This document shows positions 1-11,428 of a stretch of DNA of 64,000 nucleotides, piece by piece. The position numbers and the translations under genes are program-made. Positions within the stretch are counted from its first letter, which is position 1; every line of letters starts with the position of its first letter. Where the stretch lies: the NCBI GenBank assembly GCA_938036315.1, contig CALHPK010000002.1, forward strand, positions 97,225 to 161,224. Direction: 5' to 3'. The notes beneath the pieces were generated by a model. The model was not told the origin of the DNA and made no database searches. It was given only the letters and a program-made list of their open reading frames with translations. This stretch comes from an uncultured bacterium (GTDB lineage Bacteria > Calescibacteriota > Calescibacteriia > Calescibacteriales > Calescibacteriaceae).

Positions 1-1059
1 CTCAAGTAGAGAAATTGAGGCTTCGTTTATTTTGTATATGTCAGTAAGTTTTATTTTTCCTTCAATGAACATCTTAACTGCTACATCATTTGAGGATACG
101 AAAATACAAGGGAATGGATCGCCTAGCTTAGCACATCTCCAGCCAAGCAGAAGCGACGGAAACTTATCGAAATCTGGATCAAAGAAACTCAAGGTCTTAC
201 TCCACACAGTAGGTATTTCAAATGGAGCATCCTCAACTTCTGGATAAAGCATTGCGTACATAATCGGTATCCTCATATCTGGGTAATAGCAATTCATAAT
301 TGTTGCTCCATCCTTTAATTCTACCGCTGCGTGGACTATTGCTTCAGGATGGATTTTTACAAAAATGTTATCTGGATCTAGAGAAAAAAGATAATGTGCT
401 TCTATCACTTCAAAAGCTTTGTTAGTAAGAAGCGCGCTGTCGATTGTTATTTTCGCACCCATTTTCCAGACTGGATGTTTGAGAGCATCTTCCAAGGTTG
501 CTTTCTCCATAGCCTCCTTTGATGAGCTGAAAAAGGGACCACCAGACGCAGTTATATAGACCCTCCTTACCAGATTCCTATATGGCTCAAGAATCCTCCA
601 AAGAGAGGAATGTTCGCTGTCAACAGGAATTATTCTTGCCTTAGTTCTTTCTGCAGTTGAAAATAGAAGTTTCCCACCGCACAAGATTGCTTCTTTTGAA
701 GCGACAGCTACTATCTTCCCATTCTCCACAGCTTTGAAAACTGGCTTTGTTGATTCAAAACCTGGAATCCCGACAACTATAAAGTCAACATCCTCAAGCT
801 CAGCCATCTGATCTGGAGGCACATATTCAAAATTAAATGAGTCAAGTTTTGATTCTAATTCTGTTCTTTTATCTTGAGATATCCACACATACTTTGGTTT
901 ATATTTTTTTATCTGCTGAGCAAGCTCCTCTGCATTTTTCTGGAGTGCTAAGGCAGTAACTTCAAATCTATCTCTGAACAAGTCAATGACCTGAAGGGAC
1001 TGTTTCCCGATTGAACCTGACGATCCTAAAATAGCGACTCGCTTTTTAGATATTCGCAT
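1..1059 (-). CDS. dxr: 1-deoxy-D-xylulose 5-phosphate reductoisomerase, cut by the window edge
   Basis: Converts DXP to 2-C-methyl-D-erythritol 4-phosphate with NADPH in the cytosolic MEP pathway of isoprenoid synthesis. Reading the minus strand from ATG at 1059 gives 353 open codons that run off base 1, so roughly the last 30-50 residues are missing. Seen: NADPH-binding GSSGSIG at residues 12-18, the PVDSEHS metal/substrate motif, the ASGGPF loop, HPVWKMG, and NKAFEVIEAH carrying the conserved Asn-Lys and Glu. These make the family assignment firm. The gene is divergent from the permease at 1274. uppS (54632), which uses the product pathway, is elsewhere in the window. Confidence 0.95.
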   Translation of the reverse strand, partial: MRISKKRVAILGSSGSIGKQSLQVIDLFRDRFEVTALALQKNAEELAQQIKKYKPKYVWISQDKRTELESKLDSFNFEYVPPDQMAELEDVDFIVVGIPGFESTKPVFKAVENGKIVAVASKEAILCGGKLLFSTAERTKARIIPVDSEHSSLWRILEPYRNLVRRVYITASGGPFFSSSKEAMEKATLEDALKHPVWKMGAKITIDSALLTNKAFEVIEAHYLFSLDPDNIFVKIHPEAIVHAAVELKDGATIMNCYYPDMRIPIMYAMLYPEVEDAPFEIPTVWSKTLSFFDPDFDKFPSLLLGWRCAKLGDPFPCIFVSSNDVAVKMFIEGKIKLTDIYKINEASISLLE

Positions 1060-1273: not shown

Positions 1274-2581
1274 ATGTTTCGTAAGCCAACACAAAAAGAG
1301 CTGATTTATCTTGGGATCATAATAATTTTTTACATAAGTGCTCTGATATATACTATTGTTAACGATCTTTCTATAAGCTCGCTATACAAATATGGTCTTT
1401 TACAACCCAAAGGTATAGCTGGAGAAGATGCAAGATTAATAGAAATAGACACTCCACTTTCATGGAACATTCCTCAGGTAATATGGTTTATTTTTCTAAA
1501 GGGATCAGCAGTTTTAGTTGAACTTTTCCAGTATTGGGTGATTGGGATACTTATTGCTGCAGGGCTTGTTGTCTTTGTACCGTGGGAGAGAGTGAGGGAG
1601 AAGATGGGCTACGGGGGATTATGGAGTATTTTTCTATCAAGTATTGCTGGTGCGGTTATTCCAATATGCTCTTGCGGAATAGTTCCTGTTCTTGTAGGTA
1701 TGATACAAGCGGGTATACCCTTGGGGCCAACGATGGCGTTTCTTATTGCAGCGCCCATGCTCAATATCCCTGCAGTTTTTATGACAGCTGGGGTCTTAGG
1801 ATGGAAATTAGCTATCGGAAGAATTGTTGGGACATTTTTCATTGCACTGGGAGTTGGAATTGTTTGCTCGTACTGGCAGAAAAAGGAAAGGATATTAAGA
1901 AGATTCGTAAAATTTTCGTTTACTCCTAATCTTTCGCCCGAGCTTCGGGAATTCGCTATCAAAGTAGCAATTGCCCTTTCTAAAGCTGATAAACTTCCAG
2001 CAGATAAGCTTGCTCCAGGGGAAGAGGACAAACTCTATCTTTTAGCTGAAGCAGGAGTACTCGACCGCAGTGATGATGGATTATGGTTCTTACCCCAAAC
2101 CTCGTCTGTAGAAGCAAATGTTGCAGAAGCATGCTTTATTCTTCCTACAGGTGAAATCTCATTAAATTTGAAGGGAAGGTTCACAAGACTATTTCAGATT
2201 GCATGGGATCTTTTTCTTCAGTTGAACTACTATCTGATTCTTGCGGTTATTATTGCTGGGGCTATCAAAGTAATCGTGCCAACTACTGTTGTTGTAAAGC
2301 TTGTTGGGGGAGAGAGTTTAAGCTCTGTATTGGTTAGCTCTTTAGTTGCGGTTCTGGCCTATGTCTGCACTTATGTTGAAGTACCAACTGCTCTAGCACT
2401 AATTCACAAAGGTATGGGAGGCGGTGCAACGCTAGCATACTTACTCGGTGGCCCCGGACTTTCTCTTCCATCTATAGCAATGCTTTCAGGAGTGTTTAAA
2501 CCAAAAGTATTAATGCTTTACATCAGCATAAGTTTCATCGGTTGTGTGCTTTCAGGATATATTTACAATTTGCTCTTGTAA
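1274..2581 (+). CDS. DUF318/ArsP-type permease
   Basis: Integral membrane permease of the DUF318 (YraQ/ArsP/SO_0444) family, whose studied members export organoarsenicals or soft metals. The 435-residue protein has about eight hydrophobic segments. The N-terminal half carries the family motif CSCG at residues 132-135 followed by VPVLVGMIQAG and a proline-rich AAPMLNIPA helix. The C-terminal half has a related segment, YVCTYVEVPTALALIHKG, consistent with an internal repeat. A hydrophilic loop at about residues 205-305 separates the halves. It is first in a same-strand run with two cysteine-rich small proteins, which suggests metal or metalloid handling. The substrate is inferred, not shown. 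The ATG start is chosen from frame and hydrophobic onset. Confidence 0.85.
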   Translation: MFRKPTQKELIYLGIIIIFYISALIYTIVNDLSISSLYKYGLLQPKGIAGEDARLIEIDTPLSWNIPQVIWFIFLKGSAVLVELFQYWVIGILIAAGLVVFVPWERVREKMGYGGLWSIFLSSIAGAVIPICSCGIVPVLVGMIQAGIPLGPTMAFLIAAPMLNIPAVFMTAGVLGWKLAIGRIVGTFFIALGVGIVCSYWQKKERILRRFVKFSFTPNLSPELREFAIKVAIALSKADKLPADKLAPGEEDKLYLLAEAGVLDRSDDGLWFLPQTSSVEANVAEACFILPTGEISLNLKGRFTRLFQIAWDLFLQLNYYLILAVIIAGAIKVIVPTTVVVKLVGGESLSSVLVSSLVAVLAYVCTYVEVPTALALIHKGMGGGATLAYLLGGPGLSLPSIAMLSGVFKPKVLMLYISISFIGCVLSGYIYNLLL

Positions 2582-2664
2582 TTGTAAATATCTGTATTTT
2601 TGCTCTCCAATTCTGATATTTATAAAAAATAAAAATATGTAAATGTAAAAAGTCCGTATAAATA

Positions 2665-2671
2665 AAGGAGG
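2665..2671 (+). promoter_or_regulatory. strong Shine-Dalgarno for the ArsD-like gene
   Basis: AAGGAGG lies 10 nt before the ATG at 2682. It is one of the few strong ribosome binding sites in the window and fixes this start. Confidence 0.8.
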
Positions 2672-2681
2672 GGTATAAATT

Positions 2682-3029
2682 ATGGGGATAGATAACAGAA
2701 CTATAAGGATTTTTATGCTTCCTCAACGATTCCCCTGCGGACCGCAGTCCTCTTGTTGTGGTCCCATAGGACAAACAGAAGAAGAAATACAAAGCCTCAA
2801 AGATGTTATTGAAAAGGAGCTGGATGCAAAAGTTGAAGTAATAGATGTAACAAAAGGTCAAGATATGAAGAATTATCTCCAAATTGTAAGGCTTGTTCGC
2901 TCAATGGGTTTCCAGATCTTACCGATTATCACTCTTAACGATGAAATTGTTTCTGTTGGGATGCCAGAACAACTACACCAAGCAATTTTAGCAATCAAGG
3001 AAAAAATGAGGAAAAAGGAGGTAATGTAA
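2682..3029 (+). CDS. ArsD-like thioredoxin-fold protein with CC motif
   Basis: Small cytosolic protein of 115 residues. The N-terminus holds a cysteine cluster after the first beta strand (Cys19, Cys25, Cys26 in an FPCGP...SCCGP context). The rest follows the ArsD/thioredoxin-like pattern: a strand with VEVIDV, a helix, then a cis-Pro-like QILPIITLNDEIVSVG segment. ArsD is a metallochaperone that passes As(III)/Sb(III) to an exporter through vicinal cysteines, and a similar role with the permease upstream is inferred. It sits 100 bp after the permease and directly before the FmdB gene. The homology is judged by pattern and should be tested by a profile search. Confidence 0.6.
   Translation: MGIDNRTIRIFMLPQRFPCGPQSSCCGPIGQTEEEIQSLKDVIEKELDAKVEVIDVTKGQDMKNYLQIVRLVRSMGFQILPIITLNDEIVSVGMPEQLHQAILAIKEKMRKKEVM
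3015..3022 (+). promoter_or_regulatory. Shine-Dalgarno for the FmdB-like gene
   Basis: AAGGAGGT lies 7 nt before the ATG at 3030 and overlaps the last codons of the ArsD-like gene. This indicates translation as part of one transcript. Confidence 0.75.
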
Positions 3030-3266
3030 ATGCCAATATATGAATATATTTGTGTGGAATGCGGTGAAAAAACAGAAATATGGGCAACTATATCTGAGAA
3101 AGAAAAGGGACTAAACATTGTTTGTCAGAAGTGTGGTAGCAAGAATATGGCACAGGTATTCAAGTTTGGGGGTATCTCCTGCGGTAGCAGTTCTAGAAGG
3201 GAAGGAAACGGCAATTCTTCACCGACTTGTTGTGGCTCGCAAGCTGGCCCTGGCTGTTGCGGATAA
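3030..3266 (+). CDS. FmdB-family zinc ribbon with C-terminal Cys pairs
   Basis: A 78-residue protein that begins MPIYEYIC, the hallmark of the FmdB/CxxC_CXXC_SSSS zinc-ribbon family. Zinc ligands are Cys8/Cys11 and Cys32/Cys35. The tail beyond the ribbon is unusual: Gly/Ser/Asn-rich with Cys51 and two vicinal pairs, Cys67-Cys68 and Cys76-Cys77, ending CCG. Such CC pairs are typical soft-metal or As(III) thiol ligands. Its ATG follows the TAA of the upstream gene with no gap, so the two are almost surely co-translated. The FmdB family has no firmly known biochemical role, and a metal-sensing or carrier role is inference from the operon. Confidence 0.75.
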   Translation: MPIYEYICVECGEKTEIWATISEKEKGLNIVCQKCGSKNMAQVFKFGGISCGSSSRREGNGNSSPTCCGSQAGPGCCG

Positions 3267-3280
3267 AAAGATAAAATCAA

Positions 3281-3985
3281 TCATTTTCTCAACTTCAATT
3301 TTAGCAAAATAGGAGGAGTTACAAGCGAGAGCCAGTCTCTAACCCTAATTTTTGTATAACCTAATTTATGATCCGGGTATATCTTTGATACTCCGACTTC
3401 GCACACCTTATACCTTTCCAATGCTCTATACAAAAGATAGATTTCAAGACCATATTTATCTAACCATTTCTGGTTTAAGCTGTCCCAAAGTTCTTTTATA
3501 ATCGAGGTTCTAATTGCGCGAAAACCATTAGCGGTATCTGTTAACTTTTTACCAGTTGTCACCCAAAATACAAAGGGATGTATCCATTTTGTTCCTATTA
3601 TTCTTAAAAAGGGAGTGTTTCCAAATCTCCCCAAAAACCTTGACCCCTGAACAAAATCACAACCTGAAAATATGGGCTCCAACAGAAGAGGAATCTCTGA
3701 AGGATCATCTTTATCATTTCCAGCCATAATAACTATGATATCAACTTTATCAATAAGATAGGAGAAACCATCTCTTATACTTGCTCCAACTCCCATCCTC
3801 CTTTCATGCCTTATCGTTTTAAAATTCTTCGATAGAAATTCATACGTACCATCATCTGAGCAATCATCTACAAACACTATCTCATCAAGGAAATCAACCT
3901 TCCTTATTTTCTCCGCCACGTTGAAAATCTTAGGGACCTCATTGAATGCCGGAATAACTATCCCAACTCTTTTCCCTTTATACAT
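3281..3985 (-). CDS. GT2 family glycosyltransferase (dolichyl-phosphate sugar synthase-like)
   Basis: Cytosolic-face GT-A glycosyltransferase of 234 residues. It starts with the family 2 strand VGIVIPAFNE and continues with EIVFVDDCSDDGTYEFL (nucleotide-sugar binding). The usual DADGQ-type metal site is replaced here by AGNDKDDPSEIP. The later GSRF and ANGFRAI segments resemble DPM1/DpgS-like enzymes that load sugar onto a polyprenyl phosphate. It converges with the FmdB gene 14 bp away. The acceptor and sugar cannot be read from the sequence. The altered metal motif still holds three aspartates, so activity is plausible. Confidence 0.85.
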   Translation of the reverse strand: MYKGKRVGIVIPAFNEVPKIFNVAEKIRKVDFLDEIVFVDDCSDDGTYEFLSKNFKTIRHERRMGVGASIRDGFSYLIDKVDIIVIMAGNDKDDPSEIPLLLEPIFSGCDFVQGSRFLGRFGNTPFLRIIGTKWIHPFVFWVTTGKKLTDTANGFRAIRTSIIKELWDSLNQKWLDKYGLEIYLLYRALERYKVCEVGVSKIYPDHKLGYTKIRVRDWLSLVTPPILLKLKLRK

Positions 3986-4309: not shown

Positions 4310-5773
4310 ATGGAGAGCTTATTCCCTTTATACTTAACATTTGATGATATCCTGATAATGCCGAACTACTCCGAGGTGCTCCCGCATGAGGTAGATATTC
4401 AAACCAAACTCACCCGCAGAATAAGTATGAAAATCCCTATAATCTCAGCTGCAATGGATACCGTCACCGAAGCAGATATGGCTATAGAACTCGCTAAAAT
4501 GGGGGGAATAGGTATTATTCACAGAAACCTAACCATCCAGGAACAAGTGAGAGAAGTCGAAAAGGTCAAAAAATATAGTTCATGGATAATAACCTCTCCT
4601 GTATTTGTCGATGAAGAAACAACAGTTGGAGAAGCAATAGAGAAGATGAGAGAAAAGAATATATCAGGTCTTCCAGTCGTTAAAAATGGATACCTTGTCG
4701 GAATAGTCACAAGTAGAGATCTTAGATTTGAGTCTACCAAATCAAAAAAGATCAAAGAAGTAATGAAGCCAAAGGAAAAGCTTATAGTAGTAAAGGAGGA
4801 AGATAAGATATCTCCCGAGAAAGCAAAAGAGATAATGCATGAACACAAAATAGAAAAGCTCCCCATAGTAGATTCTGAGTTCAGATTAAAGGGGCTGATA
4901 ACTTTAAAAGATATAAGCAAATCCGAAGAAAATCCTAACGCCCTCAAAGATTCGTCAGGACACCTTGTAGTAGGGGCCGCAATCGGAACCGGTGAAAAAG
5001 AACTTGAAAGAGCAGAACAACTTATAAAAGCAGGTGTAGATGTGTTAGTCATTGATTCAGCACACGGACACTCCAGATGGGTGATAGAAACATTAAAAAA
5101 GATCAAAGAAAAATTTGATATTGATGTTATAGCAGGAAATGTAGCAACACAAGATGGAACAAAAGCTCTCCTGGAAGCAGGTGCCGATGCAATCAAAGTC
5201 GGAGTAGGACCAGGTTCAATATGCACAACAAGAATCGTCTCTGGAGTAGGTGTACCACAGATCTCGGCAATATTGGAATGTAGCAAATTAACCCAAAAAT
5301 ATGGAGTCCCATTAGTTGCAGATGGAGGGATAAGGTATCCTGGAGACATAGTGAAAGCATTGGTAGTTGGAGCAGATTCAGTTATGCTTGGAAATATGCT
5401 TGCCGGAACAGATGAAGCTCCCGGAGAAAAAGTCCTAAAAGATGGGCGCCCATACAAAGTATACAGAGGAATGGGCTCAGAAGATGCTATAAAAGATGGT
5501 ATGCAAAAGGGGGTAAGATCAAGATACCTCTCGCAAGATGATATACTCCCAGAAGGCGTTGTGGGACTTGTTCCATATAAAGGAACCGTCAGATTCATTA
5601 TTTCAAATCTAATGAAGTCACTACAGGTTGCTTTTGGTTACATAGGTGCCAAAAACATCAAAGAGGCAAGACAAAAAGCAAGAGTAATTAGGATTACAGA
5701 AGCAGGATACAAAGAATCACATGTTCACAGCGTACAAGTTCTCAAGGAAACCTTTCCATTCGTTGAAAAATAA
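4310..5773 (+). CDS. guaB: IMP dehydrogenase
   Basis: Oxidises IMP to XMP with NAD+, the committed step of guanine nucleotide synthesis in the cytosol. The 487-residue length is normal. The N-terminal part shows LTFDDILIMP; two CBS domains lie at about residues 95-205; the catalytic loop GPGSICTTR places the active-site cysteine at residue 305. The flap motif appears as YRGMGSEDA, and the distal EGVVG...YKGTV segment is intact. No Shine-Dalgarno is visible before the ATG. It converges on mutL with a 15-bp gap. purA and purQ are elsewhere in the window, so purine genes are dispersed here. Confidence 0.97.
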   Translation: MESLFPLYLTFDDILIMPNYSEVLPHEVDIQTKLTRRISMKIPIISAAMDTVTEADMAIELAKMGGIGIIHRNLTIQEQVREVEKVKKYSSWIITSPVFVDEETTVGEAIEKMREKNISGLPVVKNGYLVGIVTSRDLRFESTKSKKIKEVMKPKEKLIVVKEEDKISPEKAKEIMHEHKIEKLPIVDSEFRLKGLITLKDISKSEENPNALKDSSGHLVVGAAIGTGEKELERAEQLIKAGVDVLVIDSAHGHSRWVIETLKKIKEKFDIDVIAGNVATQDGTKALLEAGADAIKVGVGPGSICTTRIVSGVGVPQISAILECSKLTQKYGVPLVADGGIRYPGDIVKALVVGADSVMLGNMLAGTDEAPGEKVLKDGRPYKVYRGMGSEDAIKDGMQKGVRSRYLSQDDILPEGVVGLVPYKGTVRFIISNLMKSLQVAFGYIGAKNIKEARQKARVIRITEAGYKESHVHSVQVLKETFPFVEK

Positions 5774-5788
5774 CTCCCTTTTGTAAGG

Positions 5789-7492
5789 TTAGCACCTTCC
5801 GAATTTTTTTTGAATCTCATCAAAGTCAATCTTTATAACTGCTGGTCTACCGTGGGGACATCTTTGGTTTGGATCAAAATCTTCTAAGATTTTAGCAACA
5901 TCCCAAACGCTCAGATTATCTCCTTTGCGAATAACAGTTCTGCAAGCCAAACTTGCCAGAAAAGAATTGACTTTACTCTCAGTAAAACCGTCAGAAAATT
6001 CCTCAAAAAACTCTGCAAGTTCAACCCCTGCTAAGTAATAAGGTATAGAAAAGATCTTCAATTTTTCTCCATCAACATCAAATTCTATTCCATAAGACTT
6101 AAATTCATCCTTCTTTTCTATAATCTTCAGAAGAACTGTCTTAGGAACAGATAGCTCGTATGGGATAACAAACTTTAATTTCTGAACTTGAGATGAATCC
6201 TGTTTATTATTTTCAAATTTACTTTTGAGCTGACTGAAAAATTTCCCTTCATAATAAGCATGCAGATCAACTATATATATTTCTTCTTCCCACTCAACTA
6301 TTGCGAATATTCCTTTTACTACCTTAAGAACATTGGGTGAAGACCTAAGTAGTGTATTCATCACTCCCGGTGGATATTCCTGCTTTTTTTGCCGCTGAAC
6401 ATAATCTTGATCTTGAGATATCTCACCTGACTCAGTACTTTTGCTTTTGTACATCTCTGAGACTTTATTGTCTGAGTAATTTGAAAATTCACCCTGCCCT
6501 ACTTCTGTTTTTTCTCTTCTAAATCTATGTCTTATGGCCTCCTCTATAGCTGTCATTACAATTTCTCTTACTTGTGAAGGAGACCGCCATCTTATCTCTG
6601 TCTTTGTGGGATTGACATTTACATCGTAAAACTGGGGGGGACAATTTATAAAGATGATGAAATCGGAATTTCTAAGAAAGCCGAATTTCCCTATTGCCGA
6701 AAAAACTGTTTTATCTTTTATATATCTTCTATTTACGAACAGCCACTTACCAATTCCCACTTTTTCCCTCCAAATAATTCCTTCCAAGGTTATATTACCA
6801 ACATCAAACATAATTTCGAATCTATCTTTATCAACTGCGGTAGTGCCGAAGATTGACAGAAGTGTTTCAGATAGAGTTCTCCCAGCCTTGAGATTAAAGA
6901 GCACATCTCCTCCTTTTATGAATTTGAGATTTATCTCTGGAATTGCTAAAGCATATCTTGAGACGACATCGAGCACATAAGATAGTTCAACGTTATCGGA
7001 TGACAAAAATTTTTTCCTTGCCGGGGTATTGAAGAACAGATCCTTGACAAGGATAGAAGTTCCGGGTTCTATATATATTTCCTTTATTTCTTTTACCTTA
7101 CCTCCTTCTACGGAGACTTCTGTTCCGAGCTCATCTTCTTTTCTTTTAGTCCTGAGTATGACTCTTGAAACCGCTGCAATAGAGTGGAGGGCTTCACCTC
7201 TGAAACCAAAAGTCTTTACAGAATAAATATCTTGTTCTGTTGATATTTTACTTGTTGCGTATCTTTTAAATGAGTTCAAAGCATCAATTTTGCTCATCCC
7301 CTCACCGTCATCAACAACCAATATATTTTCCTTCCCATTATATATAATCTCTATTTTTTGCGCTCCGGCATCGAGCGAATTTTCCACAAGTTCTTTAATA
7401 ACTGATGCCGGTCTCTCAACGACCTCGCCAGCAGCAATAAGATTCGCCACCCTCTCAGGTAAGACTCTTATCTTTCCTTGGGAAGACATCAT
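5789..7492 (-). CDS. mutL: DNA mismatch repair protein MutL
   Basis: GHKL-type ATPase and matchmaker of mismatch repair, 567 residues. The N-terminal ATPase motifs are intact: IAAGEVVERP, the ELVENSLDAGA helix, DDGEGM and GFRGEAL. The C-terminal dimerisation/endonuclease region has DLHAYYE near residues 410-416 where nicking MutLs usually show DQHAxxE, and a later QRCPHGRP near residue 545. The retained His and CPHGR suggest metal binding, but the Gln and the second Glu of the first motif are changed. Two adjacent ATGs start the gene; the first is used here. No mutS lies in the window. Confidence 0.95.
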   Translation of the reverse strand: MMSSQGKIRVLPERVANLIAAGEVVERPASVIKELVENSLDAGAQKIEIIYNGKENILVVDDGEGMSKIDALNSFKRYATSKISTEQDIYSVKTFGFRGEALHSIAAVSRVILRTKRKEDELGTEVSVEGGKVKEIKEIYIEPGTSILVKDLFFNTPARKKFLSSDNVELSYVLDVVSRYALAIPEINLKFIKGGDVLFNLKAGRTLSETLLSIFGTTAVDKDRFEIMFDVGNITLEGIIWREKVGIGKWLFVNRRYIKDKTVFSAIGKFGFLRNSDFIIFINCPPQFYDVNVNPTKTEIRWRSPSQVREIVMTAIEEAIRHRFRREKTEVGQGEFSNYSDNKVSEMYKSKSTESGEISQDQDYVQRQKKQEYPPGVMNTLLRSSPNVLKVVKGIFAIVEWEEEIYIVDLHAYYEGKFFSQLKSKFENNKQDSSQVQKLKFVIPYELSVPKTVLLKIIEKKDEFKSYGIEFDVDGEKLKIFSIPYYLAGVELAEFFEEFSDGFTESKVNSFLASLACRTVIRKGDNLSVWDVAKILEDFDPNQRCPHGRPAVIKIDFDEIQKKFGRC

Positions 7493-7633: not shown

Positions 7634-10600
7634 CTATGTAAAAAGTTCATTAAAAAGATTCCTAAATATCTGGATGTAGTCCTCTTGTCCGGCTTCAACT
7701 CTGTCCATCTTCTCTTCAAGTTCATTTGTGTACTGTTCGGAAGTGTATATAGAAAATTTTCGGTGATTTTTGAGATAATTGTATACCTCTTTACCGAGTT
7801 TTGTTACTATCAAATATCCATTCCTTTCTATGCAGTATCCTCTATCAAGAAGAGTTTTGATTATATATGCCCAGGTGGAAGGTCTTCCTATACCTTTTCT
7901 TTTCATCTCATCTATCAGGCTTCCCTGAGTATAAGGCGGGACCGGGGAATCGAAACTGAACTTAAAATCATAAGTTTCAACGACTATCTTTTTCTTCTCA
8001 AGTAATTCTTTTGTGAAGTTAGCTATCGGGAAAAACAAAACTTTATTCCATCCATCCTCTATAATTTTAAGATTGATCTCAGATTCTTTCTCTACAGACA
8101 TTTCTTCTCCATTTGCTTTCCAACTTGCAGAGACCAAAATTTTTCCTCTCAATACTTTCAGTGGTATCATTTGCGAAGCCATAAACCTTGTGAATATAAG
8201 TTCATAAAGCTTTATAGCTTTTTCAGAAATAGATATGTTCCCTACCTTTGCTGAGATCAAAACTTCATCTGGCGTCAGATTTGACGAAGGTCTTATACAT
8301 TCGTGAGCACCCTCACCCTCCCAAGCTCTCGGGACAAAAAATCTACTTCCAAAATTCTCAGAAATGAAGTCCCTGGCTAGTGAAATTCCGACGTCTGACA
8401 CATGATGAGAATCTGTTCTATGATATGTTATAAGACCTGCCTCAAACAAACTCTGCGCTAAATTCATAGTTTCTGGAGCTGAGAACTTCAGTTTCTGCGA
8501 TGCTTCCTTTAGCATCTCAGCAGTGTTAAAGGGAGCTGGGGGGTTAATCACTACCTCTTCTGTATCTTTGAGCTCAACTTTAATCAGAATCTTTGAGTTT
8601 TCTAATCTAATTTTTTCATCTTCTTCTTTTTTTCTTTTTCTTCCCTTCAATTTTTGTAAAGATTTACTTACTTTTCTGGCAAACTCTCTATCTTCAATTT
8701 TTATGATATCTGAGATACCATTAGCGGTTTTAAATTTTAACACACCTATTTTTTCTTTCATTTGATTTTCTCTCTCTATGAGCCATTTCAGAACTGGTGT
8801 CTGAACCCTACCTGCTGACAACCATATCTTGTCATAACTTTTCTGAAGATTTTCACTCATCACAAAACCAACCCATCTATCAGTTACTCTTCTTACAATC
8901 TGTGCCTTCACGAGTCCATAATTTATATCTCTTGGTTTCTCAAGAGCATTCAGGATAGCTTTTTTTGTGACCTCATGATATTCAACTCTTCTTATCTCTT
9001 TTTTGTATTTCGGGAGCATCAGATATATATCCCAAGCTATCTTTTCCCCCTCGCTGTCCGGGTCTGTAGCTATGAAAATGGAGTCAGCTTCCAGACAAAT
9101 TTTTTGTATTGCCTTTACAACTTTTGTCTTGTCATCATATTCTTCGGATTGGCAGTATGGGCATCTTTTTTCCTCAAAAAAATGCTCCCCGCATCTTCTA
9201 CACCTTTTTATAGGTGAGTAATAAGGGATGAAAAGCTCTTTCAGATCCTCATTAATAACTTCCACACCGTAGAAATTTTGTTTTTCATATCCTCTTTTTT
9301 GTGGAGAGAATGGCAGATCATATATATGTCCTCCTGATGCTATCAAAGTTATGTTCAGATCTCCTTTTGATACCTCCCAAGCTTCGGCAAAATTGCCATT
9401 TTCTCCGATGGGTACTTTCCTTTTCATCGGCTTACCTATTAGCTTGGCAATGGTTCCGGCTTTGTTTGGAGACTCAACAATAAACACTGCAGTTTTGGGC
9501 GGTTTTACAGCTTTCAGATCCGCACCAAGTGGATTTTCATGCAATTTCATAATGAGTCTTATCTTCTCCCTATCTCTATCCACCTCTTTTAGAATTTTCT
9601 CAAGCTCTACTTCTTCGAAATTCTTGAAATTAACATCAACGAGATCGATTTTAAGGCGCTTTTTAAGCTGTACGAAGGCTTTCTTATCATCCACTATGAG
9701 TATAGATAAACCTTTTGATAACCCTTCTATATACAATCTCGAGGTTCTTCCAGTTGCTTGAATGTAAGCCGATGAATCAGCAACTATTAACCTAAACTTG
9801 CCATCACCTCCAACCCTTAGGGGGACATCTTCTGACATTCTTATTTTCTGAAGGATCTGTGGGTTCGAGATGCTCTCTTCAATAAATTTCTTTATACTTT
9901 CAAATCTTTCTTTTATGGCGGGATATCTATCTATATCATCTTTACGCATACCGACGTATCTTCTCAATGATTCTATGAATGAATAGATTTTTCTTCCATT
10001 GCCTAAAACGGAACGAATCGAAAATAAAACCCCGAGCATTTTCGAGGGTTCGTCTATCTCTTGAATTGAAAAAATAAATCTTGGAACTCCAGCAAAGATG
10101 GCATATCTTACGGTATCAGGCATATCTATCCCTCTGCAAAGTGGATTCCTCAGCGATGAGATTCCTATAACTACCTGAATTTCTTCATCTCTAAATTTGC
10201 GCTGATTCTCATCCTTGAATTCTTCATACGTAACCGCGTTTATGTGTCTCCTCATTAGGAAAGATTTTAGTTCATCAACCGACTCCTTCCCATATTCAGA
10301 ATTGACAAAGACAAACCCGCCATTCCCACACATTGATACAACTTCAGCAACTTTCTTAAAAACTTTCTTTTTGACTCTTTTCAGATCCTCATCTTTAATT
10401 ATTTCTCCATCAATAATGGTATAAGTATCTTCTATATTTCTTATTGTTGATGTGAATGGAGAAATTTCAAAGCCAAAAAGTTCTCTGAAATATCTCACGG
10501 TATTTGCACGCGGTTTGGCTGTAGCAGATGATATTACAAGAACTCCCTTAATCTTCTTCCTTATCTCCGCAACTGATTTATTTACCTCTGAAAAAGCTTC

Positions 10601-11428
10601 AAATTTTTGAATCTGAGATTGTTCCCTGTTTCTCATTATCTCATACTTCCTCAGTATTGTAGATTTCAATTTTTCAACATCATCTTTTGAAAGCCCCATA
10701 AGCTTGAGAACTCTTTCGACATTCTTTGGCTGTTTGAGATAAGTATCAACATCATCAACAAATATAAAATCAAAATCTTTACCAATTATGATGTTTTCAT
10801 TCCTTGCAAGAAACATACTCGTCGTGATAAGTATGTCATAATCTCCACTCTGAACTTTATCCCTGATTTTTTTATCAGATTTTGAAACGAAAAGAACTTT
10901 TTTCTGCATTCCGAGCCTATCTATAATTTCTTCAATTCTTTTTACAAATAGCCCGGAAAGAAGCTTGGTAGGCATTATTATATAAGATTTCCCTTGTGTA
11001 AACAGAGACATAACTATTCCGAATGTCGTTTTTCCTATACCTGTTGGAGCTAGAGCAACAAACGACTGATTAGCAAAGGTTCTCTTTGCCCAATTCAATT
11101 GCAAAGACCAGGGTTCTGATCCGACAACATTTTTGAAGAAAGAGGAAAATTCTTCTGCTCTCCTCTCTATTTCGTAAATTTGCGAAAGATACTTTAATTT
11201 TCCATTACTCCGCAATACTTCTATGATATGAGGCAAAGATACATCCTGGGGAATCTCAGGTAAACACTCTGAGCAAGGAATACCCTTATCAAGCCTATCA
11301 GATGATATATCCCCTCCACAGTTTATACAACTTTTAAGGAAAATGGCAGGTATATTACTGCTTATCTCGGTAGCTTTTTGCATTCCTTCTTCTATTATAT
11401 TCATTTTATAGCGAACTGCCCTTATCAT
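7634..11428 (-). CDS. rgy: Reverse gyrase
   Basis: ATP-dependent topoisomerase that introduces positive supercoils, the marker protein of hyperthermophiles. In order: an N-terminal zinc finger (Cys34, 37, 52, 55); SF2 helicase-like domain with Walker A APTGIGKT at residues 128-135 and DDVD at 225-228 in place of DEAD; topoisomerase IA domain from about residue 645 with FIVESPNKAG; a second zinc finger CRRCG...CPYC; acidic Toprim motif ATDPDSEGE; and active-site tyrosine Tyr1002 in LITYHRTDS. At 1264 residues it is longer than the 1050-1110 residues usual for single-chain enzymes, with the surplus before the topoisomerase half. An alternative start is Met9. Confidence 0.97.
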   Translation of the reverse strand: MIRAVRYKMNIIEEGMQKATEISSNIPAIFLKSCINCGGDISSDRLDKGIPCSECLPEIPQDVSLPHIIEVLRSNGKLKYLSQIYEIERRAEEFSSFFKNVVGSEPWSLQLNWAKRTFANQSFVALAPTGIGKTTFGIVMSLFTQGKSYIIMPTKLLSGLFVKRIEEIIDRLGMQKKVLFVSKSDKKIRDKVQSGDYDILITTSMFLARNENIIIGKDFDFIFVDDVDTYLKQPKNVERVLKLMGLSKDDVEKLKSTILRKYEIMRNREQSQIQKFEAFSEVNKSVAEIRKKIKGVLVISSATAKPRANTVRYFRELFGFEISPFTSTIRNIEDTYTIIDGEIIKDEDLKRVKKKVFKKVAEVVSMCGNGGFVFVNSEYGKESVDELKSFLMRRHINAVTYEEFKDENQRKFRDEEIQVVIGISSLRNPLCRGIDMPDTVRYAIFAGVPRFIFSIQEIDEPSKMLGVLFSIRSVLGNGRKIYSFIESLRRYVGMRKDDIDRYPAIKERFESIKKFIEESISNPQILQKIRMSEDVPLRVGGDGKFRLIVADSSAYIQATGRTSRLYIEGLSKGLSILIVDDKKAFVQLKKRLKIDLVDVNFKNFEEVELEKILKEVDRDREKIRLIMKLHENPLGADLKAVKPPKTAVFIVESPNKAGTIAKLIGKPMKRKVPIGENGNFAEAWEVSKGDLNITLIASGGHIYDLPFSPQKRGYEKQNFYGVEVINEDLKELFIPYYSPIKRCRRCGEHFFEEKRCPYCQSEEYDDKTKVVKAIQKICLEADSIFIATDPDSEGEKIAWDIYLMLPKYKKEIRRVEYHEVTKKAILNALEKPRDINYGLVKAQIVRRVTDRWVGFVMSENLQKSYDKIWLSAGRVQTPVLKWLIERENQMKEKIGVLKFKTANGISDIIKIEDREFARKVSKSLQKLKGRKRKKEEDEKIRLENSKILIKVELKDTEEVVINPPAPFNTAEMLKEASQKLKFSAPETMNLAQSLFEAGLITYHRTDSHHVSDVGISLARDFISENFGSRFFVPRAWEGEGAHECIRPSSNLTPDEVLISAKVGNISISEKAIKLYELIFTRFMASQMIPLKVLRGKILVSASWKANGEEMSVEKESEINLKIIEDGWNKVLFFPIANFTKELLEKKKIVVETYDFKFSFDSPVPPYTQGSLIDEMKRKGIGRPSTWAYIIKTLLDRGYCIERNGYLIVTKLGKEVYNYLKNHRKFSIYTSEQYTNELEEKMDRVEAGQEDYIQIFRNLFNELFT

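Follow-up and report, generated by a model that had tools for sequence, protein, structure and literature searches.

ArsD is an arsenic metallochaperone that works with the ArsA ATPase and was first described as a regulator. The function of FmdB proteins has long been unclear, and they are annotated as putative regulators. C-terminal vicinal cysteine pairs are found in R773-type ArsD, and trivalent organoarsenicals, methylarsenite among them, are exported by the permease ArsP (PMC12607644). ArsP proteins share a conserved C(S/T)C motif, and LAV or TPF precedes the CSC in the two ArsP clusters (PMC4435449). The selenocysteine-assisted organometallic (SAO) system comprises the permease SaoE, the thioredoxin-like SaoT and SaoC, which has a Cys-Cys-COOH end (PMC13188914).

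Within a 64,000-nucleotide stretch of bacterial DNA (the window), three adjacent genes encode a permease, a thioredoxin-fold protein, hereafter the CCGP protein, and an FmdB-type zinc ribbon (Table 1). A first-pass annotation had described them as a cysteine-rich trio with a CSCG permease, a C19/C25-C26 protein and a gapless FmdB gene, which the open reading frames and Pfam confirm. The permease and CCGP genes are separated by 100 bp, and the CCGP stop codon abuts the FmdB ATG (0 bp). AAGGAGG-type ribosome sites lie just 5´ of both small genes (2665-2673 and 3015-3021). The window's genome (G000; G and L numbers denote genomes and loci) contains one copy each of the CCGP and trio permease genes. 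Judged by sequence conservation, the CCGP protein is not the product of a chance reading frame: 16 relatives were found, and C25-C26-G-P is invariant in all Cys forms. The window also encodes a reverse gyrase of 1264 aa (7634-11428, minus strand), whose domains are a zinc finger, a helicase, a Toprim and a topoisomerase domain; its presence makes it very likely that the host is thermophilic.

Table 1. Positions in the window of the trio, its sequence features and the flanking genes.
Feature	Position	Strand	Remarks
dxr	1-1059	-	flanks the trio; name read from the translation
ArsP_1/DUF318-type permease	1274..2581	+	435 aa; distinct subfamily with IPICSCG motif and cytosolic insert; PF03773 8e-62
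CSCG motif, permease residues 132-135	1667..1678	+	from sequence; C(S/T)C motif of ArsP-type permeases
Permease insert, 100 residues between its two halves	1898..2197	+	residues 209-308 of the permease; insert residues 5-68 predicted winged helix
ArsD-like thioredoxin-fold protein (CCGP protein)	2682..3029	+	115 aa; C19 and vicinal C25-C26-G-P
C25-C26 codons of the CCGP gene	2754..2759	+	second codon is TGA (putative Sec) in nine relatives
FmdB-type zinc ribbon with Cys-rich C-terminal tail TCCGSQAGPGCCG	3030..3266	+	78 aa; PF09723 1.2e-11, TIGR02605 1e-11
FmdB tail residues 67-78	3228..3263	+	C68, C76 and C77 invariant in seven homologues
Glycosyltransferase	3281-3985	-	flanks the trio on the other side; name read from the translation

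The CCGP family has no match over cut-off in Pfam or NCBIfam 20.0. For the window protein the best Pfam match is ArsD (PF06953, 14.8 bits against a cut-off of 27), and the NCBIfam ArsD model (NF033727) gives 17.1 of 90 bits; the best-scoring relative, L003, reaches 26.0 of 27 and 24.1 of 90 bits with the two models. VcpD, an ArsD-related vicinal cysteine protein (NF047871), likewise scores 17.1 of 90 bits with the window protein and matches none of the scanned relatives. Sequence searches with the window protein returned no useful match in the PDB or in plasmids. At the profile level, hhalign aligns the CCGP family with six ArsD sequences at 97% probability (E 1.1e-10). The AlphaFold2 model, built from 14 sequences, is thioredoxin-like with a pLDDT of 84.6, and the top Foldseek matches are the ArsD structures 3MWH, 3KGK and 3KTB (probability 1.00, E ~2e-3). 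VIA-align gives ArsD a Z of 7.6 versus 8.5 for the best match, with many thioredoxin folds at similar Z; because it does not single out ArsD, the fold alone is not taken as proof.

In the alignment, C26-G-P of the CCGP protein matches C18-G of ArsD, which indicates that the vicinal pair has shifted from the start of the loop to its end. A tree of five ArsDs and 17 CCGP proteins separates the two groups with 100/100 support. Judged by profile and modelled fold, the 115-aa protein stands outside the ArsD family, as a remote sister to it; the ArsD-like character proposed in the first-pass annotation is thus borne out.

The relatives were collected in three steps. A scan of one genome per species yielded four, a profile built with these retrieved nine genes of the Sec type, spread over eight genomes from the class to which L003 belongs, and a wider profile applied to 386 genomes across the domain added three further Cys-type genes. 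With the window included, the family comprises 17 genes, eight of the Cys type and nine of the Sec type. Weak matches within far longer frames (L006 and L007) and a true ArsD (L023) were left out. The C19/C25-C26 motif noted at the outset holds in part: C25-C26-G-P is present in all Cys forms, whereas C19 is missing in L003 and several Sec forms; across the whole family only the C26 position, as Cys or Sec, is universal. The profile search found no CCGP gene in G001-G004, four genomes from the same taxonomic family as the window. Of 294 genomes searched in the phylum to which L005 belongs, 293 are likewise without it, the sole exception being the genome of L005 itself. This rare and patchy distribution, with four same-family genomes devoid of the gene, suggests horizontal spread.

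The most surprising part of this putative ArsD-like carrier family is its predicted selenocysteine branch, which, like the permease insert described below, is absent from the first-pass annotation. The codon aligned with C26 is an in-frame TGA in all nine Sec-type genes and lies ~17-24 codons from the start of a 104-117-codon gene; with so early a TGA in so short a gene, these genes have probably been annotated wrongly in public genomes. SelB (340-363 bits) and tRNA-Sec (68-72 bits) are present in all eight Sec-type host genomes. Of the five Cys-type genomes compared, G000, G061, G062 and G063 have neither; G060, the genome of L002, has both, yet its CCGP gene keeps Cys. The Sec-type hosts appear to be Dehalococcoidia with a content that fits Dehalogenimonas, and published Dehalogenimonas genomes carry selCDAB (PMC13390414, PMC4918011).

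A hairpin of the form CAATCGTC-NNN-GACGATTG is present in 9/9 Sec genes, with its loop starting 20 nt after the TGA. Of 103 gap-free codon columns, the only ones with an invariant third base are those of the start codon, the TGA and the six hairpin codons; no invariant third-base block occurs in the five Cys genes compared. The residues encoded at the hairpin are GQSSETI (once GQSSSTI) in Sec forms and GQ[T/S]EEEI in Cys forms. Folding z-scores of the individual Sec hairpins are unremarkable, the invariance of the hairpin sequence leaves no covariation on offer, and no SECIS family of Rfam matched the Sec-type genes. A pseudogene or a sequencing error as the source of the TGA was rejected on the grounds that the codon is shared among nine genes with an open frame on both sides and that the third bases of the hairpin codons are invariant. 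Third-base conservation, position and genome content together make up the case for Sec, from which the nine relatives are predicted to be Cys-Sec selenoproteins with a SECIS-like hairpin. All Sec genes fall into a single clade (100/100) that excludes the Cys genes, several inner forks being unsupported; rooting with ArsD makes Cys the apparently older state, and a single Cys-to-Sec change is likely. A 2026 review of prokaryotic selenoproteins makes no mention of ArsD; a prior description by Haft and co-workers (2023, 2025) is possible.

The trio recurs in unrelated lineages, contiguous, dispersed or rearranged in six relatives, which supports the first-pass annotation on this point. It is contiguous in the window, L002 and L044, whereas its parts are dispersed or rearranged in L003, L004 and L005; L046 has the order ArsR-permease-ArsM-CCGP-FmdB-ArsC, with arsM between the permease and CCGP genes and an ArsM that passes its NCBIfam cut-off. 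The Cys-type CCGP gene is accompanied by a trio-type permease in L002, L005, L044 and L046 and, in L004, by the broken remnants of one; the L003 permease is ordinary. The L004 permease (5235-5952) is split over several frames beside intact CCGP and FmdB genes, by decay or assembly error. Tailed FmdB accompanies seven of the eight Cys-type genes, the eighth (L045) being at a contig edge. Around the nine Sec-type genes, no FmdB gene was found up to 6 kb away.

Neighbours of the relatives include ArsR, ArsM, ArsC, ACR3, ArsD or ArsA, so the context points to arsenic and not to any soft metal, and the metalloid-efflux setting originally proposed is both upheld and sharpened. Curated models identify ArsM (291.9 bits, cut-off 263), ACR3 (464.7, cut-off 282.8), ArsA (799, cut-off 650) and ArsR-family regulators; the ArsC homologues fall under the TIGR02691 cut-off. 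ACR3, accompanied by ArsR, adjoins most Sec-type genes; at one such locus a true ArsD and ArsA come next. In total, 16/17 CCGP genes lie beside a metalloid-type gene (PF03773 permease, ACR3, ArsC or ArsM). The exception is L032 (5983-6333), a Sec-type gene without an ars neighbour and one of two Sec-type copies in G274. Other arrangements were also seen at these loci. In L046 (6152-6694), an ArsC-like protein carries a fused GDCCVxC domain (NF041374), which is annotated as a predicted (seleno)protein. The operon of the Sec-type gene in L027 encodes an ArsD (4790-5701, minus strand) fused behind a Cys-rich N-terminal domain of ~180 residues. In L028 (3799-4835), and also in L027, L029, L031, L033 and L034, an ArsP-like permease is apparently encoded by two half-length genes, which lie in ars operons, mostly beside ACR3.

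No ArsR, ArsM, ACR3 or ArsA gene is found beside the window's own trio, and ACR3, ArsB and ArsM have no match in G000 (a draft, 85% complete); we therefore infer the substrate in the window from the relatives. ACR3 and ArsB are also absent from G060, G558 and G628, so the trio permease may be the main exporter in these four genomes; for G000, the lack of all three genes fits this role.

The trio permease belongs to the ArsP_1 family (PF03773, 209.5 bits against 32.3), with CSC at residues 132-134, a motif invariant in nine aligned permeases. Its identity with the permeases of L002, L005, L044 and L046 is 56-78%, against 27-28% with the others aligned, and a single-sequence search of the PDB found no relative. 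SaoE scores 125.6 of 325 bits. All five trio permeases carry the 100-residue insert, which matches no Pfam family. Its model has a mean pLDDT of 65, with block values of about 75-89 in the folded part, and its top PDB matches are weak (best E 0.04) and mostly winged helices. The insert is thus weakly predicted to form a winged helix over ~64 residues and is a possible docking or sensing domain.

The third protein is an FmdB by both models (TIGR02605, 44.7 bits against 31.3; PF09723, Zn_ribbon_8, 44.9 against 34.4). Two vicinal Cys pairs had been noted in its tail; they are present in the window and L044 only, and the family feature is one Cys plus CCG (7/7), with C68, C76, C77 and G78 invariant and ends that read CCG or CCG plus one residue. 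The same annotation had held such a tail foreign to ordinary FmdB, and a CC pair is indeed absent from the tails of all 37 FmdB relatives from viral contigs, an imperfect control that, being of viral origin, may not represent cellular FmdBs. A plasmid control gave no match. Several of the fetched ArsD sequences also have CC tails, and by analogy the FmdB tail may stand in for the C-terminal Cys pairs of ArsD.

These observations suggest that the trio is probably an arsenic-efflux module with an ArsD-like carrier, a CSC permease and accessory thiols on FmdB. In the exposed loop of the CCGP protein, C25-C26, joined by C19 in some members, would bind a trivalent arsenical, As(III) or methylarsenite, and pass it to the CSC-motif permease, perhaps by docking on the winged-helix insert; the permease would then export it without an ArsA-type ATPase. 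The three thiols of the FmdB tail (C-x7-CC) could serve as a further ligand or transfer station, in the manner of the C-terminal Cys pairs of some ArsDs. In one clade, which has no FmdB partner, selenocysteine in place of the second Cys would provide a stronger soft ligand. Arsenic as the substrate is moderately well supported, mainly through the relatives. Methylarsenite would fit the ArsM gene in L046 and the two-thiol sites, and As(III) is equally possible.

A different role would be that of a redox partner, in which the Cys-Cys or Cys-Sec pair, fed by thioredoxin, either acts as the reductant of an arsenical or serves to regenerate the permease, ArsC or ArsM. Selenocysteine is commoner in redox catalysts than in carriers, and a Cys-to-Sec change usually marks such a catalyst. 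Together with L032, which has no ars neighbour, and the unspecific VIA-align result, this counts against the carrier model, as do the two-Cys members (L003, L017-L020), in which a three-thiol site like that of ArsD would need a ligand from a partner. The thioredoxin fold with its LPI loop and the CxxC thioredoxin-like or AhpD-like gene often found near CCGP genes also suit redox chemistry. However, the CCGP protein has no CxxC motif, its pair is vicinal as in metalloid-binding sites, its nearest kin ArsD is a carrier, and one operon places it beside both ArsD and ArsA; we therefore regard a redox role as unlikely, though worth keeping in view.

Export of another soft metal (Cu, Zn, Hg or Sb), as by SO_0444-type exporters and with an incidental ars context, would agree with the window trio, which has no ars neighbours, and with the closest NCBIfam equivalog of the permease, SO_0444 Cu/Zn efflux (NF033936). 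At 146.9 bits this match is only half of the 300-bit cut-off, and ArsM, ArsC, ACR3, ArsD and ArsA adjoin the relatives in several lineages, which makes such a substrate improbable. The first-pass annotation had also included a sensor in the module, and a mainly regulatory CCGP protein, as ArsD was first described, with the insert or FmdB sharing in sensing, would recall the kinship with ArsD, the annotation of FmdB proteins and the predicted winged helix. The trio itself lends this no support: separate ArsR genes occur in L003, L005, L044 and L046 and none with the window trio, the CCGP protein has no DNA-binding region, and the evidence for the insert fold is weak. We consider a regulatory role very improbable.

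Returning to arsenic carriage and efflux, the fullest version is one that we hold tentatively, at slightly less than even confidence: the CCGP proteins would form an undescribed arsenic-carrier family, sister to ArsD, with a vicinal Cys-Cys or Cys-Sec pair and selenium acting directly as a ligand in arsenic trafficking, and in the Cys lineages would have as partners a dedicated winged-helix-insert permease and a thiol-tailed FmdB. If so, an ArsD sister beside a permease and without ArsA would add a route for handling arsenic, the Sec switch in one lineage would offer a test of Se-As bonding for metalloid trafficking versus redox catalysis, and some FmdB proteins would gain a testable role.

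Compared with the described systems, the trio permease shares with ArsP, SO_0444 and SaoE the PF03773 family, the CSC motif and the association with ars operons; it differs in the IPICSCG sequence before and at the CSC, which departs from both ArsP clusters, and in an extra N-terminal region and the winged-helix-like insert. The trio resembles the SAO system, by analogy, in its permease superfamily, a thioredoxin-like partner, a protein ending in Cys-Cys and the interchange of Cys and Sec (PMC13188914). Unlike SAO, the unit includes neither a MerB-like lyase nor an ABC transporter, and its proteins reach the cut-off of no Sao model, CCGP and FmdB giving no match to these models at E up to 10. 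The window FmdB has the N-terminal CxxC-CxxC ribbon of FmdB proteins (TIGR02605) over cut-off and is distinguished from the sampled viral-contig FmdBs by its conserved C-x7-CCG tail. The CCGP protein differs from ArsD in falling below all ArsD cut-offs, in usually having no ArsA, in the existence of Sec variants and in the metalloid site, which departs from C12-C13-x4-C18 of ArsD and reads (C)-x5-C-C-G-P. With ArsD (PF06953, NF033727; 3KGK, 3MWH) it shares a thioredoxin-like fold, an N-terminal Cys loop before the first helix, an LP loop (LPI in CCGP) and the ars-operon context.
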